From positions 1 through 57,363 of the forward strand of contig JAFUGS010000095.1 in NCBI GenBank assembly GCA_017469265.1: a stretch of 57,363 bases of DNA, in the 5' to 3' direction. Below the pieces are notes generated by a model that did no database searches, was not told the origin of the DNA, and worked only from the letters and a program-made list of their open reading frames with translations. The translations under genes and the position numbers were made by a program. This DNA comes from Clostridia bacterium. GTDB lineage: Bacteria > Bacillota > Clostridia > Christensenellales > Aristaeellaceae. Numbering within the stretch: position 1 is the stretch's first letter; every line of letters begins with the position of its first letter. Positions 2,951 through 41,243 of the stretch are shown here, piece by piece.

Positions 2951-4141
2951 TTGGCCAGACGGTACAGGGACCAGAGTGATCAGCTGCTCCGGCGCCAGGG
3001 CCGCAGCGCCAGGGAACGGCAGCAGAACGCGGACGCGGAGAAAACCCGCCGGACGCGCATCCGGGCCGGGATCATCCTGGTGGCGCTGGTGGTGGCGGTG
3101 CTGCTGGGGTTCCGCTTCCTGCGGGCCAACGGCCCCAGGGAAAGCTCCGCTTCCCGGCTGCCCTGCTTCGCCAATCAGAACGTGACCCCCTTCGGGGACA
3201 GCGTGCTGTATTACGACGGCGCCAGCCTGCACTGCCTTACCTCCTCCGGCACGATCCGCTGGAGCTTTCCGGCGGGGGAGAGCGCGTCCTTCTACGCGGG
3301 GCCGAAGCATGTGGCGATCTGGAGCGGCATGCAGATGTACCTGGTGGACTACAACGGCAATTCCACCTACAACGAAAGTATGGAGGGCCAGGTCCAGTTC
3401 ATCCGGGTGGGGGACCGGTACTGCGCCGTGGTTGTGGGGGAGGACACGGAATCCAAACTGATCGTGAAGGATCTGCAGGGCTCCCAGATCGACGTGGAGC
3501 AGGAAGCCTTCAGCGGGCTGATGATTCTGGATACCGGGTTTTACGGCGACCAGGGGGAATATCTCTGGACCCTGAGCCTGGACGTTTTCGGGACGGCGGC
3601 TAACACGATCATGAACACGTTCCAGGTGGGCAAGATGAACACCGGCGAGGTCAGCCTGGGTTCCTCCCTGACCTACAAGGTGCTGTATGAGAACGCCCGG
3701 CTGCGGGTGTTCACCACGCAGCAGTGCTATACCTATGACTACAAGTGCGTCCAGGACACCAACGCCACCATGCTGGTGTACGGCTGGAAGCTGATCGATC
3801 ATGAGATCCCCGAGCGCGGCGCGGCCAGAATGCTGCTGGCGCCCACCAGCCAGACCAGCAGCGCCCAGTCCATTACGGAGCTGCGGGTGCTGGAGGGAAA
3901 CGTGGACAAGCGCTACACCCTGCCGTCCGCCTGCGTGGGCGCCTGCATCTGGAAGGGAAACATTTACGCCTTCAGCGACGCCTATCTCTACCGGGCGGAT
4001 ATGAACAGCCAGCGCTTTTTTGTCAGCGGGATTCCCGTGCCGGAGGATACGGCGATCACCGCGTTCTATGGAGTGACCACGGACGGCCGGGCCCTGCTGG
4101 CGGCGGGGGACACGGTGTATTCCCTGAGACTGCCGCAATAA
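2951..4141 (+). CDS. DUF5711-like single-pass membrane protein
   Basis: The protein has 396 residues and a TTG start preceded by a strong AAAGGAGG. The first 36 residues are very basic and rich in Arg and Gln. One transmembrane helix follows at about 37-57, then a long extracytoplasmic domain with short beta-strand-like repeats (for example WSFPAGE, YLVDYNGN, YLWTLSLD), suggesting a propeller-like fold. The layout matches clostridial proteins annotated as DUF5711; that family name is from memory and the function is unknown. It lies between an Fe-S carrier ATPase and proS with short gaps and probably shares their transcript. The topology prediction puts the N-terminus inside and the repeat domain outside. 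Confidence 0.7.
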   Translation: MARRYRDQSDQLLRRQGRSARERQQNADAEKTRRTRIRAGIILVALVVAVLLGFRFLRANGPRESSASRLPCFANQNVTPFGDSVLYYDGASLHCLTSSGTIRWSFPAGESASFYAGPKHVAIWSGMQMYLVDYNGNSTYNESMEGQVQFIRVGDRYCAVVVGEDTESKLIVKDLQGSQIDVEQEAFSGLMILDTGFYGDQGEYLWTLSLDVFGTAANTIMNTFQVGKMNTGEVSLGSSLTYKVLYENARLRVFTTQQCYTYDYKCVQDTNATMLVYGWKLIDHEIPERGAARMLLAPTSQTSSAQSITELRVLEGNVDKRYTLPSACVGACIWKGNIYAFSDAYLYRADMNSQRFFVSGIPVPEDTAITAFYGVTTDGRALLAAGDTVYSLRLPQ

Positions 4142-4203
4142 GGATCCAAATACAGAACCGGCGGGCCGAGCACCCATGGGCCGGGAAGACGGAGGAAAAC
4201 ATC

Positions 4204-5649
4204 ATGGCGAAGGACAAGCAGGAATTTGTGACCCACATTACCCCCCGGAGTGAGGATTTTTCCCAGTGGTATACGGACGTGATCAAGCAGACGGAGCTCT
4301 GCGATTACGCGCCGGTGCGGGGCTGCATGATCATCCGGCCCTATGGCTACGCCATCTGGGAGCGGATTCAGGCGGAGATGGATGCCCGCTTTAAGGAGAC
4401 CGGGGCGCAGAATGTGTATTTCCCGATGCTGATTCCGGAGAGCCTGCTGCTGAAGGAAGCGGAGCATGTGGAAGGCTTCGCGCCGGAAGTGGCCTGGGTG
4501 ACCCAGGGCGGCGGGGAAACCCTGCAGGAACGCCTGGCGGTGCGCCCCACCAGCGAGACCATCTTCTGCTCCATGTATTCCAAATGGGTGCAGACCTGGC
4601 GGGATCTGCCCATGATGTACAATCAGTGGTGCTCCGTCATGCGCTGGGAGAAGGCGACCCGGCCTTTCCTGCGGACCAGCGAATTCCTCTGGCAGGAGGG
4701 GCATACCATCCACGCCACCGCGGAGGAGGCGGAGGAGGAAACCCTGAAGATGCTGGAGGTCTACCGGGAAGTGGCGGAGGACGTGCTGGCGCTGCCCGTC
4801 TACGTGGGCCAGAAGAGCGAGAAGGAAAAGTTCGCCGGCGCCCGGGCCACCTACTCCATGGAAGCCATGATGCAGGACGGCAAGGCCCTGCAGGCCGGCA
4901 CCAGCCACAATTTCGGCACCAATTTCGCGGAGGCGTACGATATCCAGTACCAGAGCAGGGAAGGCAAGCTGGAATACGTCCATGAAACGTCCTGGGGCGT
5001 CAGCACCCGCCTGATTGGGGCGATTATCATGACCCACGGCGATGAGCGCGGCCTGCGGCTGCCCCCGAAGGTGGCGCCCATTCAGGTGGTGATCCTGCCC
5101 ATCGCGGCCCACAAGGGCGGCGTGATGGAGGCCTGTGAAAAGATGCTGGGCGAGCTGAAGCAGGCCGGTTACCGGGTGAAGCTGGACGACCGGGATACGG
5201 TGTCGGCGGGATACAAGTTCAACGACTGGGAGCTGAAGGGTGTGCCCGTCCGGCTGGAAGTGGGCCCCAGGGATCTGGAGAATGGCGTGGTGACGGTTTT
5301 CCGCCGGGATACGCTGGAAAAGTTCACCCTGCCGCTGGAAAACCTGGCCGGGGAGCTGGGCGCGCTGCTGGAGGATATCCAGAAGGGCCTGTATGAGCAG
5401 GCGAAGGCCTTCCGGGACGCGCGGACCCGCGTGGTGCACAACATGGAGGAGCTGGAGACGGCGGTGCAGGACGGCTTTGCCAAGGCCATGTGGTGCGGTG
5501 AGCGGGCCTGTGAGGACGAGATCAAGGACAAATTCAACGCCTCCTCCCGGAACATGCCCTTTGACCAGGAAGGCAACACCTTCGGCGACACCTGCGTCTG
5601 CTGCGGAAAGAAAGCGAAGAAGGTCATGTTCTTCGCGAAGGCCTACTAA
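4204..5649 (+). CDS. proS: Prolyl-tRNA synthetase, type 3 (archaeal/eukaryotic-like)
   Basis: This 481-residue class II synthetase charges tRNA-Pro with proline. Its length and the absence of the bacterial insertion (editing) domain mark the short type-3 form found in some bacteria, archaea and eukaryotes. Motif 2 is visible as RWEKATRPFLRTSEFLWQEG, motif 3 as THGDERGLRLPP, followed by an anticodon-binding domain (about 285-390). The C-terminal zinc-binding-like domain has paired cysteines (CVCCGKKAKK near the end). The ATG at 4204 has GGAGGAAAACATC in front. It sits 62 bp after the DUF5711-like gene and 20 bp before plsX in the same direction, so co-transcription with lipid and RNA-processing genes is likely. 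Confidence 0.97.
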   Translation: MAKDKQEFVTHITPRSEDFSQWYTDVIKQTELCDYAPVRGCMIIRPYGYAIWERIQAEMDARFKETGAQNVYFPMLIPESLLLKEAEHVEGFAPEVAWVTQGGGETLQERLAVRPTSETIFCSMYSKWVQTWRDLPMMYNQWCSVMRWEKATRPFLRTSEFLWQEGHTIHATAEEAEEETLKMLEVYREVAEDVLALPVYVGQKSEKEKFAGARATYSMEAMMQDGKALQAGTSHNFGTNFAEAYDIQYQSREGKLEYVHETSWGVSTRLIGAIIMTHGDERGLRLPPKVAPIQVVILPIAAHKGGVMEACEKMLGELKQAGYRVKLDDRDTVSAGYKFNDWELKGVPVRLEVGPRDLENGVVTVFRRDTLEKFTLPLENLAGELGALLEDIQKGLYEQAKAFRDARTRVVHNMEELETAVQDGFAKAMWCGERACEDEIKDKFNASSRNMPFDQEGNTFGDTCVCCGKKAKKVMFFAKAY

Positions 5650-36000: not shown

Positions 36001-36613
36001 GGGGGGCCAGGCGGCGGTTCAGCTCGTCCAGAATGTCGTCCACCCGGGAAAGATTGTCCTGGGTCCGGGCCAGCTTTTTGTCCGCCTCTTCCTTCCGGGC
36101 CCGGAACTTGACGATGCCGGCGGCTTCCTCGAAAACCAGACGGCGGTCCTCCCCCTTGCGGGAAAGAATCTCGTCAATGCGGCCCTGGCCGATGATGGAG
36201 TAGCCTTCCTTGCCGATGCCCGTGTCCCGGAAAAGATCAATCACGTCCTTGAGCCGGCAGGTGGACCGGTTCAGAAAATATTCGCTCTCCCCGGAGCGGT
36301 AGACCCGGCGGGTGACCATAATTTCCGCGTAATCCATGGGCAGGGCCCGGTCCTCATTGTCAAAAACCAGGGAGACCTCGCAGTAGGAAAGGGGTTTGCG
36401 CTTCTGGGTGCCGTTGAAAATGACGTCCTGCATGCTGCTGCCCCGCAGCAGCTTGGCGCTCTGCTCCCCCAGCACCCAGCGGACGGCGTCCCCGATGTTG
36501 CTTTTGCCGGATCCGTTCGGCCCCACGATGGCGGTGATTCCCTCGTTCAGGACGATTTCCGTCCGCTGGGCGAAGGACTTGAACCCGTAGAGCTCCAGTT
36601 TCTTCAGTCGCAT
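33047..36613 (-). CDS. smc: Chromosome segregation SMC ATPase
   Basis: A full-length 1188-residue SMC protein, which condenses and separates chromosomes with ScpA and ScpB. Residues 1-160 form the N-terminal ATPase half, with Walker A GPNGSGKS at 31-38. Long coiled coils (about 165-510 and 670-1020) flank a hinge at about 520-670 that contains [13 protein letters not shown] and [16 protein letters not shown]. The C-terminal half has the signature [14 protein letters not shown] and Walker [26 protein letters not shown] stands before the ATG. The leader contains a hairpin repeat (36628-36670). It is distant from rnc, unlike the common rnc-smc-ftsY order. Confidence 0.98.
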
Positions 36614-36627
36614 TGATTCCTCTTTGG

Positions 36628-36670
36628 TATCTCTTCAGTCGCTCCGCTTTCTGGACTGAATCGTTACCCT
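36628..36670 (-). repeat. Short hairpin repeat in the smc leader
   Basis: On the minus strand this reads GTAACGATTCAGTCCAGAAA then GCGGAGCGACTGAAGAGATA then CC. TTCAGTC and GACTGAA form a 7-bp stem. Its left half matches 41302-41330 and its right half matches 39525-39546 and 41590-41611, so it belongs to a dispersed family. Confidence 0.75.
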
Positions 36671-36747
36671 CTTTGATCCAAAGTACTTCCGGCGGCTTTG
36701 CGGAACCGGCCGGGACCTTTCCGCCGCAAGGCGCGAAAGGACAAGCT

Positions 36748-36776
36748 ATCTTAGCACAATTTCGCGGGAAAAGGAA
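36748..36776 (-). promoter_or_regulatory. Possible smc promoter
   Basis: On the minus strand an extended -10 (TGCTAAGAT, 36748-36756) lies 17 bp from a poor -35 (TTCCTT). It would give a leader of about 130 bases carrying the hairpin repeat. Confidence 0.4.
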
Positions 36777-36830
36777 CAGGAGGATTGCTTTTCCGGCGCT
36801 TTTTCGGCTATTTCCTGTTTCCGGGGAATA

Positions 36831-36839
36831 TGGTATACT
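36831..36839 (+). promoter_or_regulatory. Extended -10 promoter for the GTPase-NYN gene
   Basis: TGGTATACT is an extended -10 box 31 bp before the start codon; the -35 position (TTTCCT, 36811-36816) is weak. Confidence 0.5.
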
Positions 36840-36870
36840 GCCTGCGAAGACCGGGAAAGGAGGGAGCGCC

Positions 36871-39516
36871 ATGGCGGAGAAGCATCTGGTGACGGGGCTG
36901 GTGGCCCATGTGGACGCGGGCAAGACCACCCTCAGCGAGGCGCTGCTGTACGCCGGGGGCCAGCTGCGGAAGCTGGGCCGGGTGGACCATGGGGACGCCT
37001 TCCTGGACACGGACGCCCAGGAGCGGGAGCGGGGCATCACCATTTTTTCCAAGCAGGCGGAAACCGCCTGGAAGGATCTGCGCCTGACCCTGCTGGATAC
37101 CCCCGGGCATGTGGATTTTTCCAGCGAGATGGAGCGGACCCTTTCCGTGCTGGACGCGGCCGTGCTGGTCATCAGCGGGGCGGACGGGGTGCAGGGGCAT
37201 ACGGAGACCCTCTGGCGGCTGCTCCGGGCCTATCAGGTTCCCACCCTGCTGTTCATTAACAAAATGGATCAGCCCGGGATCAGCCGGGCCGCCCTCCTGG
37301 CGGAGCTCCGCCGCCGGCTGGGGGACGGGTGCGTGGATCTCTCCGCCCCGGAGGGCCCGGAGGAGGCGGCCCTCTGCGATGAGGAAGCCATGGAGCTTTT
37401 CCTGCGGGAAGGCGAAATTCCCCGGCCCCGCCTGGCGGCCATGGTGGCCCGGCGGCAGCTTTTTCCCTGCTTCTTTGGCAGCGCGCTGAAGATGACGGGC
37501 ATCGAAGCCCTGCTGGACGGCCTGCGGGAGCTGGTGCCCGCGCCGGCGTACGGGGACGCGTTTGCCGCCCGGGTTTACAAGATCAGCCATGATCCCCAGG
37601 GCGCCCGGCTGACCTGGATGAAGATCACCGGCGGCGGCCTGAAGGTCAAAAGCCTGCTGCGCACCGGGGCGGAAGAGGAAAAGGTGAACCAGATCCGCCT
37701 CTACAGCGGCGCCAGGTACCGCCTGGCGGAGGAGGTTTCCGCCGGCACGGTCTGCGCGGTTACGGGCCCCGCCGCCACCCGGGCCGGGGACGGCCTCGGC
37801 GCGGAAAGCGCCGCCCCCTCCCCGCTGCTGACGCCGGTCTTTTCCTATCAGGTGCTCCCGGCCACCGGCACGGATCCGGTTCAGCTCCTCAGCCAGCTGC
37901 GCCAGCTGGAGGAGGAGGACCCGCAGCTCCACGTGGTGTGGAAGGCGGAAAAGCGGGAGATCCATGTGCAGCTGATGGGGGAGGTGCAGCTGGAGATTCT
38001 CCGCCGCCTGACGCGGGATCGTTTCGGGGCGGAAATCGCCTTCAGCCCCGGCAGCGTGCTGTACCGGGAAACCATCGCCGCCCCCGTGGAAGGGGTCGGC
38101 CACTACGAGCCCCTGCGCCATTACGCCGAGGTGCATCTGCTCCTGGAGCCGGGGGAACCCGGCAGCGGCCTGCGCTTCGCTTCCGCCTGTCCCACGGACC
38201 AGCTGGACCGGAACTGGCAGCGGCTGATCCTGACCCACCTGATGGAAAAAACCCACCGGGGCGTGCTGACCGGCGCGCCGGTGACGGATCTGCGGGTCAC
38301 CCTGACCGCGGGCCGCGCCCACCTGAAGCACACGGAGGGGGGCGACTTCCGCCAGGCCACCTACCGGGCGGTGCGCCAGGGCCTCATGCGGGCGGAGAGC
38401 GTGCTGCTGGAGCCCTGGTATGACCTGCGGCTGGAGCTGCCCGGGGACTGCCTGGGCCGGGCCATGAGCGACCTGACCCAGATGGGCGGCCGCTTTGACC
38501 CGCCGGAAACCGAGGGGGACCGGGCTGTCCTGACGGGGTCCGCCCCCGTCGCCGCCATGCGGGATTACGCCCGGGAGGTGACCAGCTATACCCGGGGCCA
38601 GGGCCGTCTGCGGGTCAGCCTGCGGGGGTACGCCCCCTGCCGGCATCCGGAGGAGGTCATCGCCGCGGCGGCCTACGATCCCCTGCGGGATGTGGAAAAC
38701 AGCCCGGACTCCGTCTTCTGCGCCCATGGCGCGGGCTTTGTCGTGCCCTGGGATCAGGTGGAGCGCTATATGCACCTGCACCCGGAAGCCCTGGGCAAGG
38801 CCGACGCTTCCGGGCCCGCCGCCCCGTCCCGCTCCGGGTACCGGGGCACCGCGGCGGAGGACGAGGAGCTGCAGGCGATCTTCGAGCGCACCTACGGCCG
38901 GCGGGAGCTCCGGCTGGCCGGGGATCTGCCGCCCCGGCGGAATGAGACCACGGTCAACGGACAGCTGCTGGAGCTGCCCCCGCCGAAGACGGAGTACCTG
39001 CTGGTGGACGGCTACAACATCATCTTCGCCTGGCCCGACCTGCAGGCCCTGGCGCGTCGCAGCCTGGAGGACGCCCGGAAGAGCCTCGTGGATATTCTGG
39101 GCAATTACCACGGCTTCCATCCCTGCGAGCTGATCCTGGTCTTCGATGCCTACCGGGTCCACGGCGGCGTCGGTCACCAGGAGGAAACCCAGGGGATCCA
39201 CGTGATCTATACCCGGGAGGCGGAAACCGCGGACAATTATATCGAGAAGGCCATCCGCCGGATCGCCCGGAAGCAGGACAGCCGGATCCGGGTGGCCACC
39301 AGCGACGGGCTGGAGCAGGTGATCATCCTGGGGGGCGGCGCCACCCGGGTGTCCGCCCGGGAGTTCCGCCAGGAGGTGGAACAGGCGCGGGTGGAAATCG
39401 CCGCCATCCTGGAAAGGAACAACCTGCGCCCGAAGGAGGTTTCCCCCGTGGCGCTGGCGATGCGGAAGGCGCTGGAAAGGCAGTCCGCCGGGGAGGAAAA
39501 GAAAAATCCGGAATAA
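36871..39516 (+). CDS. TetM/EF-G-like ribosomal GTPase fused to a Rae1/YacP NYN endoribonuclease
   Basis: An 881-residue two-part protein. Residues 1 to about 660 are a translational GTPase of the TetM/TetW group: G1 AHVDAGKTTLSEAL, G2 RERGITI, G3 DTPGHVDF, G4 NKMD, followed by EF-G-like domains II to V. After a linker of roughly 45 residues, residues 705-860 form a YacP-type NYN nuclease domain with the acidic residues of LLVDGYNIIFAWPDL, LVFDAYRVHGG, REAETADNYIEKA and VATSDGLEQV. In B. subtilis the free homologue Rae1 cuts mRNA in the ribosomal A site. The GTPase part targets the same region of the ribosome, so the fusion could deliver the nuclease to stalled or drug-bound ribosomes. GGAAAGGAGGGAGCGCC precedes the ATG; the longer upstream frame is noncoding. 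A simple tetracycline-resistance role is not supported by context. Confidence 0.93.
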   Translation: MAEKHLVTGLVAHVDAGKTTLSEALLYAGGQLRKLGRVDHGDAFLDTDAQERERGITIFSKQAETAWKDLRLTLLDTPGHVDFSSEMERTLSVLDAAVLVISGADGVQGHTETLWRLLRAYQVPTLLFINKMDQPGISRAALLAELRRRLGDGCVDLSAPEGPEEAALCDEEAMELFLREGEIPRPRLAAMVARRQLFPCFFGSALKMTGIEALLDGLRELVPAPAYGDAFAARVYKISHDPQGARLTWMKITGGGLKVKSLLRTGAEEEKVNQIRLYSGARYRLAEEVSAGTVCAVTGPAATRAGDGLGAESAAPSPLLTPVFSYQVLPATGTDPVQLLSQLRQLEEEDPQLHVVWKAEKREIHVQLMGEVQLEILRRLTRDRFGAEIAFSPGSVLYRETIAAPVEGVGHYEPLRHYAEVHLLLEPGEPGSGLRFASACPTDQLDRNWQRLILTHLMEKTHRGVLTGAPVTDLRVTLTAGRAHLKHTEGGDFRQATYRAVRQGLMRAESVLLEPWYDLRLELPGDCLGRAMSDLTQMGGRFDPPETEGDRAVLTGSAPVAAMRDYAREVTSYTRGQGRLRVSLRGYAPCRHPEEVIAAAAYDPLRDVENSPDSVFCAHGAGFVVPWDQVERYMHLHPEALGKADASGPAAPSRSGYRGTAAEDEELQAIFERTYGRRELRLAGDLPPRRNETTVNGQLLELPPPKTEYLLVDGYNIIFAWPDLQALARRSLEDARKSLVDILGNYHGFHPCELILVFDAYRVHGGVGHQEETQGIHVIYTREAETADNYIEKAIRRIARKQDSRIRVATSDGLEQVIILGGGATRVSAREFRQEVEQARVEIAAILERNNLRPKEVSPVALAMRKALERQSAGEEKKNPE

Positions 39517-39524
39517 CGGGCGCG

Positions 39525-39546
39525 AGCGGAGCGACGGAACAGATAC
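39525..39546 (+). repeat. Copy of the hairpin repeat (right half)
   Basis: AGCGGAGCGACGGAACAGAT followed by AC, directly after the GTPase-NYN stop codon, matches the right half of the smc-leader repeat and of the element at 41302-41611. Confidence 0.65.
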
Positions 39547-39638
39547 AAAACCGGGGCTGGCGGGAAAACCGATATTTGACTTCAGAGAACCGCTGTGATA
39601 CAATAAACCGAAATTTGTTGATCAAAGGGGGCTTTCCC

Positions 39639-39791
39639 ATGGAACACATTCAGACCCTGAACACCCGGAATCTCTGTGAGAGCGCGAAGAACGGCGGCTG
39701 CGGCGAATGCCAGACCTCCTGCCAGTCCGCCTGCAAGACCAGCTGCGGCATTGCGAATCAGCAGTGCGAGAACAAGGCTGAGCAGAAGTAA
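39639..39791 (+). CDS. scfA: SCIFF ranthipeptide precursor
   Basis: A 50-residue peptide with the hallmark MEHIQTLNT leader and a Cys-rich core (GGCGECQTSCQSACKTSC and a final NQQC). SCIFF peptides (six cysteines in forty-five residues) are modified by a radical SAM enzyme that links Cys sulfurs to side chains of neighbouring residues; they are near-universal in Clostridia and have been linked to cell-to-cell signalling. The canonical six cysteines are C21, C24, C28, C32, C36 and C43. This copy has a seventh, C13, in the leader. AAAGGGGGC precedes the ATG. The maturase gene starts 75 bp downstream, after a hairpin. Confidence 0.95.
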   Translation: MEHIQTLNTRNLCESAKNGGCGECQTSCQSACKTSCGIANQQCENKAEQK

Positions 39792-39810
39792 TCACCGCTT
39801 TGATGAGAAG

Positions 39811-39833
39811 TGCCGCCCACGGGCGGCATTTTT
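39811..39833 (+). terminator. Attenuator between SCIFF precursor and maturase genes
   Basis: A 7-bp stem TGCCGCC-CACG-GGCGGCA followed by five T. Partial termination here would give more peptide mRNA than maturase mRNA. Confidence 0.8.
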
Positions 39834-39866
39834 CATCCCGACAGACTTCGGGGAAAGAGGTTTTTC

Positions 39867-41243
39867 ATGATTCATCAGTATCAGATGGACGGGCTGAACA
39901 TCGTACTGGACGTCTGCTCCGGCGGGGTGCACCTGGTGGACGAGATCGCCTACGACATGATCGCGCTGTACCAGGACCGGTCCCGGGAGGAAATCCTGGC
40001 GGCCATGGCGGAAAAATACGGCGGCCGGGCGGATGTAACCCCGGCGGAGCTGGCGGCCTGCTATGACGAGATCACCGCGCTGAAGGAGGCGGGGCAGCTT
40101 TTTTCGGAGGACAGCTTCGTGCCCCTGGCCGGGGAGCTGAAGCAGCGGACCAGCGGGGTGGTGAAGGCCCTGTGCCTCCACGTGGCCCACAGCTGCAACC
40201 TGAACTGCTCCTACTGCTTCGCCAGTCAGGGCAAGTATCACGGGGACCGGGCGCTGATGTCCTTCGAGGTGGGAAAACAGGCGCTGGATTTCCTGATGGA
40301 TCATTCCGGCAGCCGGCACAATCTGGAGGTGGATTTCTTCGGCGGGGAACCGCTGATGAACTTTCAGGTGGTGAAGGATCTGGTGGCCTATGCCCGGTCC
40401 GTGGAAAAGGAAAGGGGCAAGCGCTTCCGCTTTACCCTGACCACCAACGGCATGCTGATCGATGACGACGTGATTGATTTCGCGAACCGTGAATGCAGCA
40501 ATGTGGTGCTGAGCCTGGACGGCCGGAAGGAGATCCATGACCGCTTCCGGGTGGATTACGCCGGACAGGGCAGCTGGGACCGGATCGTGCCGAAGTTTCA
40601 GAAGCTGGTGGCGGCCCGGGGCGGCAAGAACTACTATATACGGGGCACCTTTACCCACGCGAACCCGGATTTCCTGAAGGATATCCAGGTGATGCTGGAC
40701 CTGGGCTTTACGGAGCTGAGCATGGAGCCGGTGGTCTGCGCGGAGGGGGATCCCTCCGCCCTGACGGAGGCGGATCTGCCCGTCGTCATGCGGCAGTACG
40801 AGGACCTGGCCCGGCTGCTGGTGGCCCGGCGCCGGGAGGGGCGGCCCTTCACCTTCTATCATTACATGATCGACCTGAGTGGCGGCCCCTGCGTGTACAA
40901 GCGGATTTCCGGCTGCGGCTCCGGGACGGAATACATGGCTGTGACCCCCTGGGGGGATCTGTATCCCTGCCATCAGTTCGTGGGGGAGGAAGCCTTCCGC
41001 CTGGGGGATGTCTGGCAGGGAGTGACCAACACGGAGACGCGGGCGGATTTCGCCGCCTGCAACGTGTACGCCCGGGAGGAGTGCCGGGACTGCTGGGCGC
41101 GCCTGTACTGCTCCGGCGGCTGCGCCGCCAACGCGTATCACGCCACGGGCTCCGTCCGGGGCGTCTACAAAACCGGCTGCGAGCTTTTCCGGAAGCGGAT
41201 GGAGTGCGCCATCTGGGCGGAAGCCATGCGGACGCGGGAATAA
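39867..41243 (+). CDS. scfB: Radical SAM SCIFF peptide maturase
   Basis: A 458-residue radical SAM/SPASM enzyme that installs thioether cross-links in the SCIFF peptide. The N-terminal 90 residues resemble the peptide-recognition (RRE-like) domain. The SAM cluster motif is SCNLNCSYC (CX3CX2C, about residues 109-117). The C-terminal SPASM region has cysteines in SGCGSGTEYM, LYPCHQF, CNVYAREECRDCW and YCSGGCAANAYH for two auxiliary [4Fe-4S] clusters. The ATG at 39867 has GAAAGAGG upstream; the longer frame runs through the attenuator. It works directly with the precursor at 39639. Confidence 0.96.
   Translation: MIHQYQMDGLNIVLDVCSGGVHLVDEIAYDMIALYQDRSREEILAAMAEKYGGRADVTPAELAACYDEITALKEAGQLFSEDSFVPLAGELKQRTSGVVKALCLHVAHSCNLNCSYCFASQGKYHGDRALMSFEVGKQALDFLMDHSGSRHNLEVDFFGGEPLMNFQVVKDLVAYARSVEKERGKRFRFTLTTNGMLIDDDVIDFANRECSNVVLSLDGRKEIHDRFRVDYAGQGSWDRIVPKFQKLVAARGGKNYYIRGTFTHANPDFLKDIQVMLDLGFTELSMEPVVCAEGDPSALTEADLPVVMRQYEDLARLLVARRREGRPFTFYHYMIDLSGGPCVYKRISGCGSGTEYMAVTPWGDLYPCHQFVGEEAFRLGDVWQGVTNTETRADFAACNVYAREECRDCWARLYCSGGCAANAYHATGSVRGVYKTGCELFRKRMECAIWAEAMRTRE

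Follow-up and report, generated by a model that had tools for sequence, protein, structure and literature searches.

A translational GTPase fused to a Rae1/YacP NYN nuclease in Clostridia: architecture, distribution and possible function

Architecture and conservation of the fused protein

A 57,363-nucleotide stretch of DNA from a member of the Clostridia (contig JAFUGS010000095.1 of GenBank assembly GCA_017469265.1; the whole stretch is referred to here as the window) carries a gene for a fusion protein in which a translational GTPase of the EF-G/Tet type is followed by a nuclease domain of the Rae1/YacP NYN type. The gene occupies positions 36871-39516 of the forward strand as a single stop-free frame of 881 residues, and both halves are intact in one protein, with GTPase domains I-V followed by a C-terminal extension, a flexible linker and the nuclease. 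Its features are as follows.

36858..36863 (+), Shine-Dalgarno-like AGGAGG preceding the ATG, read from the sequence
36871..39516 (+), whole gene of the translational GTPase-NYN fusion, 881 residues (translation, Pfam, AlphaFold2 model)
36880..37539 (+), G domain, residues 4-223, with HVDAGKTT, DTPGH (including His80) and NKMD (Pfam GTP_EFTU, 2.2e-51)
37561..38043 (+), domains II and III, residues 231-391 (Pfam EF-G_D2 at 231-309, EFG_III at 321-391)
38050..38394 (+), domain IV, residues 394-508 (Pfam EFG_IV, 3.1e-19)
38311..38352 (+), domain IV tip loop GRAHLKHTEGGDFR, residues 481-494, replacing the Tet YYSPVS loop (alignment of 112 proteins; tet(M/O/W) and EF-G-type rows)
38401..38643 (+), domain V, residues 511-591 (Pfam EFG_C, 6.5e-18)
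38644..38778 (+), C-terminal extension of the GTPase with DSVFCAHGAGFVVPWDQVERYMH, residues 592-636, present in unfused relatives too
38779..38988 (+), linker, residues 637-706, mostly disordered, with a conserved helix at 661-675 (EELQAIFERTYG) (model and alignment)
38989..39429 (+), Rae1/YacP NYN nuclease, residues 707-853, with acidic residues D713, D759, D788, E792 and D812
39430..39513 (+), divergent C-terminal tail, residues 854-881, replacing the LExxRR element of stand-alone Rae1 (sequence comparison)

Six Pfam matches of the protein (GTP_EFTU, EF-G_D2, EFG_III, EFG_IV, EFG_C and NYN_YacP) exceed their cut-offs, the last of them at residues 710-853 with 161.9 bits against a cut-off of 24.6 (1.8e-47). 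An earlier note on this DNA, which had placed a GTPase and a YacP NYN domain in one intact frame, is borne out by these matches and by the uninterrupted translation. The same note called the NYN domain complete, which is true of the catalytic part with its acidic residues but not of the domain end, as the Pfam match stops at model position 144 of 166 and the LExxRR element is absent. In the AlphaFold2 model of the whole protein, the mean predicted local distance difference test score (pLDDT) is 88.7, the extension forms a hairpin (614-625) and a helix (627-633), and the linker falls below a pLDDT of 50 at 645-658 and 680-702. No stop or frameshift separates the halves: the same layout is found in two other listed genomes of the genus, with open frames of 901 and 894 amino acids, and in 112 distinct aligned proteins, and an artefact of assembly or frameshift was rejected on this ground. 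Records in which the halves lie in two frames or are cut by contig ends (L157, L217, L218 and L219) were kept unmended.

The alignment contains 114 fused proteins from fetched loci, 112 of which are distinct, the other two being repeat rows. In the nuclease half, D713, N716 and D759 are invariant in all 112 distinct proteins and D788, E792 and D812 are kept in 111 (one gap); the acidic residues fall in the same columns as in all 41 stand-alone NYN proteins. In the GTPase half, H80 is likewise kept in 111 of 112, with a single Tyr. Domain IV, which in EF-G and Tet proteins extends to the A site of the ribosome, is the best-conserved domain: mean column identity over the 114 rows is 0.82 in this domain, 0.62-0.69 in the others and 0.46 in the linker, and the tip-loop residues G481, H487, T488, G490, G491, D492, F493 and R494 are present in every one of the 112. 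The linker ranges from 62 to 146 residues in length, and its helix at 661-675 retains E666 in 107 and I670 in 108 of the 112 distinct proteins. Overall, both halves look catalytically intact and strongly constrained, judging by these conserved positions.

Relation to known proteins and origin of the fusion

The best NCBIfam matches of the protein are the tet_protect and EF-G models, all under cut-off (412.4 versus 775 bits and 303 versus 659.4 bits, respectively). The GTPase had been described in the earlier note as TetM-like, and this description fits the domain plan, which is close, but not family membership, given the low score, a domain IV tip that lacks the YYSPVS loop and a position outside the tet(M/O/W) rows. 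Tet(M), Tet(O) and Tet(W) have the same five GTPase domains as the fused protein and, like it, a short extension behind domain V; however, they are about 28-30% identical to it, belong to another clade and differ in the domain IV loops and in the extension. In a quick tree with support from the Shimodaira-Hasegawa-like approximate likelihood ratio test (SH-aLRT), a 54-row clade (support 100) takes in the fused and unfused rows and leaves out the three tet rows. The fused proteins carry GRAHxKHTxGGDFR at the site where the three Tet rows have YGLYYSPVSTPADFR, with AHLKHT in place of YYSPVS in the window's protein. Pro509 in the YYSPVS loop of Tet(M) is reported to overlap the tetracycline site, but Tet(M) with the triple change S508A P509A V510A is reported to be still active (PMC4750697), and loop identity is therefore not decisive against Tet membership. 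The domain plan and predicted fold of the GTPase half are shared with EF-G, whereas the domain IV loops differ; two EF-G-like genes (frames of 708 and 699 amino acids) lie elsewhere in the window genome. By sequence, the GTPase belongs to its own subfamily within the EF-G/Tet group, apart from Tet(M/O/W).

A further Tet-like GTPase group was observed in the window's order (L202 2896-4830 (-), L203 2896-4914 (-) and L214 1945-3873 (+)), with the tip loop DHxxHTHPLDF (HHLIHTHPLDF in L214), a tail CPRR...YIL and 34-36% identity to the window's protein over the searched residues 320-640. L202, the one member scored, lies under the tet_protect cut-off (510 versus 775).

Rae1/YacP of Bacillus subtilis (5mq8, 5mq9), whose fold and acidic residues are matched by the NYN half, is described as a cutter of messenger RNA (mRNA) in the A site (PMC6613710, PMC12320835), and the list of nucleases that cut mRNA on stalled bacterial ribosomes is called incomplete in a 2025 review (PMC12320835). 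S1025 was the first Rae1 substrate to be characterised. Rae1 is a stand-alone protein of about 170 residues with an LExxRR-type end, and that end has been lost from the fusion: the strict pattern closes 31 of 41 stand-alone NYN proteins versus 0 of 107 distinct fused ones, and a loose pattern is found in 35 of 41 versus 4 of 107. The second arginine of this element is R166 in 5mq9 numbering, and R166P is among the reported loss-of-function suppressor mutations of B. subtilis rae1 (PMC6613710). At the join itself, unfused GTPases stop just past the extension motif SVFC..G...W..., near a conserved His, whereas the fused proteins continue beyond the motif into the linker and the NYN domain.

The origin of the fusion was followed in two trees, both quick IQ-TREE runs with SH-aLRT support only, and partial and repeated loci were left out of the sets used for the trees and for the NYN comparison. 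The fused rows of the GTPase tree (66 rows), in which the whole subfamily has a support of 100, form a clade with a support of 99 that includes one unfused row (L159), and the other 19 unfused rows lie outside it. A clade with a support of 96 in the NYN tree (78 rows) unites 37 fused rows with 2 stand-alone ones. The simplest history is one old fusion followed by joint inheritance, with few separations or losses. The two stand-alone NYN genes that group with the fused rows in this clade (L035 of genome G209 and L220 of genome G225) come from genomes that also carry an unfused GTPase of the subfamily; the LExxRR element is present in L220 and mostly present in L035, which fits their branching before the element was lost. 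The unfused GTPases share the domain IV loops of the fused protein, except for L159, and its C-terminal extension, after which they end without an NYN domain, and some of them are annotated as 'TetM/TetW/TetO/TetS family'. L159 itself (2983-4917, +) is a plasmid gene of Ligilactobacillus salivarius annotated as a tetracycline ribosomal protection protein; it is placed inside the fused GTPase clade, though with a long branch, lacks an NYN domain and carries a changed tip loop.

Distribution, literature and genomic surroundings

Distribution was examined in a class sample of 393 genomes, the window's own included, for which a completeness of at least 90% was requested. Frames of more than 700 amino acids were classed as fused and those of less than 250 as stand-alone; about the best 150 places were listed for each of the NYN_YacP and GTPase searches, and the state of 19 genomes, among them 6 fused and 12 stand-alone, was taken from the GTPase search. 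An NYN_YacP match is present in 250 of the 393 genomes, and the fusion in 128, or about one third. Without the window's genome, the remaining 392 comprise 127 with the fusion, 112 with a stand-alone gene and 143 with neither, with 9 genomes of cut or intermediate frames and 1 of unknown state set aside. Only 5 of the 128 fused genomes (G120, G174, G208, G284 and G370) have more than one NYN match listed, and the 54 NYN-bearing families divide into 20 with fused frames only, 28 with stand-alone frames only, 5 with both and 1 with an intermediate frame only. Within the class sample the fusion is common, and it nearly always replaces stand-alone Rae1. In a phylum sample of 398 genomes, which partly overlaps the class sample, the GTPase subfamily occurs in 34 genomes; the frame is of fused length in 28 of them and measures 651-674 amino acids in the other 6. 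Of at least 590 relatives the best 80 were kept, and their record titles name carriers such as Intestinimonas, Flavonifractor, Lawsonibacter, Ruminococcus flavefaciens, Anaerovorax odorimutans and Fusibacter. Individual carriers are Anaerovorax odorimutans (L116) and Intestinimonas butyriciproducens (L080).

In the window's order, the NYN domain is rarer, with a match in 27 of 121 sampled genomes, mostly in stand-alone frames, and none in the other 94. The single NYN_YacP match of the window genome (91.75% complete) is the fusion itself; elsewhere in its family, a stand-alone NYN gene is present in G419, and none was found in G293, G439 and G488. The fused gene is present in three genomes of the genus (the window's, L198 and L199), and the genus may have acquired it through transfer. 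Contamination of the contig is unlikely, as the fusion is also found in the two other listed genomes of the genus. L199 is the same as L158, a goat omasum record titled 'Clostridia bacterium', over the part compared.

The fusion architecture is already known, since a YacP-like NYN domain was described in 2015 in the Tet proteins of ten Clostridiales, with a suggested role in antibiotic resistance, and the possible ability of these proteins to act as ribonucleases on ribosomal RNA (rRNA) was named in the Background of that paper as worth testing (Atkinson 2015; PMC4342817). These proteins (Additional file 8) share the architecture of the window's protein, likewise in Clostridia, and are likely to belong to the same clade. 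Our literature search, which left the primary Rae1 papers outside its range, found only this description of the fusion and no functional test of it. The literature examined was found to mention neither its wide distribution nor its single origin, its replacement of Rae1 or the loss of the C-terminal element. What appears to be new here, from sequence comparison, is the scale of the family, its single origin, the replacement of Rae1, the loss of the C-terminal element and the subfamily status of the GTPase.

With regard to the surroundings of the gene, a divergent SMC gene lies upstream, and downstream are a SCIFF six-cysteine peptide gene (39633-39791, +; PF13165, 5.4e-23) and a radical S-adenosylmethionine (SAM)/SPASM gene (39810-41243, +), which is likely the SCIFF peptide maturase. 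In one of the two other genomes of the genus, a radical SAM gene with 86% identity to that of the window also lies close to the fusion, though on its opposite side, which likewise speaks against contamination of the contig. Neighbours were clustered over 108 loci, many with short flanks, at a 60-bit floor: 102 of the loci hold the fused gene in one cluster, no further cluster occurs in more than 15, and an operon or defence-island context was therefore rejected. PADLOC gave no match, Rfam gave no match within the window, and the sole promoter-like match in 36500-39850 sits downstream of the fused gene. A transfer-messenger RNA is encoded in the window genome (E 4.2e-75).

Possible role of the fusion

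We give about even credence to the view that the fused protein is this lineage's Rae1, with the attached translational GTPase as its carrier to the A site of paused ribosomes. In this view, the GTPase half would dock at the factor site when the A site of the 70S ribosome is unoccupied, and domain IV would reach into the decoding centre with its tip (HxKHTxGGDFR). The extension and flexible linker of at least 60 residues would then allow the tethered nuclease to reach the A-site mRNA and cut it; the ribosome on the cut mRNA could then be cleared by trans-translation. GTP hydrolysis might, as a conjecture, gate the cut, for example if it drew domain IV back and made room for the NYN domain. The earlier note had proposed that the protein docks on stalled ribosomes and then cleaves the mRNA, and this is consistent with the analysis, in that the docking site is predicted from homology to EF-G and Tet proteins and cleavage in the A site from Rae1; ribosome rescue is the presumed purpose. 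An extended form of this proposal, to which we would subscribe only tentatively, is a GTP-gated A-site nuclease that would sense an empty A site, withdraw domain IV upon hydrolysis and let the tethered Rae1 cut the exposed codon. Such a protein would be dedicated to mRNA surveillance and would have taken the place of free Rae1 in much of the Clostridia, and its unfused relative would be a translation factor that works with a separate Rae1 in other lineages.

Several points weigh against delivery of the nuclease by the GTPase. The predicted template modelling score of the AlphaFold2 model (0.71) and the largely disordered linker leave the placement of the two halves relative to each other loose, and the effect of R166P might be mere unfolding of Rae1. 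Domain IV and a docked Rae1 would both need the A site, so that sequential action must be assumed. Furthermore, with the subfamily counted at E 1e-60, a threshold that remoter unfused copies would escape, a stand-alone NYN gene occurs without the GTPase in 91 of the 392 class genomes, and Rae1 therefore does not need the GTPase. Conversely, an unfused GTPase accompanies a separate NYN gene in 21 of the 392 genomes and occurs in 7 in which no NYN was found (in G203 as a short frame only), and nuclease delivery is therefore probably not its sole role. The two halves thus seem to be independent of each other, the fusion uniting proteins that are able to occur alone, and the GTPase appears to serve some function besides carrying the nuclease.

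These unfused GTPases, whose domain IV loops and extension are those of the fused protein, also favour a fusion of convenience, in which Rae1 is tethered to an independent translation factor for local concentration and its cut is not controlled by GTP, and a long and poorly conserved linker is in keeping with it. However, the conserved linker helix and the loss of the C-terminal element of Rae1 suggest more than a passive tether, and we regard this alternative as rather doubtful, even if it fits nearly as well as a Rae1 delivered by its GTPase. Both are more likely than the two remaining explanations. The published proposal (PMC4342817) is that of a Tet-type ribosome protection protein with added ribonuclease activity, which would confer protection from antibiotics. 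The Tet-like domain plan and the best, if sub-threshold, NCBIfam matches speak for it, but the shortfall against tet_protect, the placement outside the tet(M/O/W) rows, the replacement of the loop with Pro509 by AHxKHT (which is in itself not decisive), the presence of the fusion across whole families without stand-alone NYN (20 of 54) and the lack of a recurrent neighbour in more than 15 loci make it improbable. The target of the NYN domain might also be rRNA or transfer RNA, to which the GTPase would bring it in the course of maturation, quality control or shut-down, as the cleavage substrate cannot be read from the sequence; with Rae1, the closest characterised homologue, described as cutting mRNA in the A site, processing of stable RNA appears a similarly slim prospect.

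For annotation, the family carries a warning, in that members of the subfamily can bear a tetracycline-resistance label, as L159 does, while the window's protein fails the Tet family tests made here. In this neglected but widespread architecture, evolution has tied a GTPase of a ribosome-docking type to an mRNA-cutting nuclease, with both sets of active-site residues retained, and the fusion makes the route of Rae1 to the A site testable using a single purified protein.
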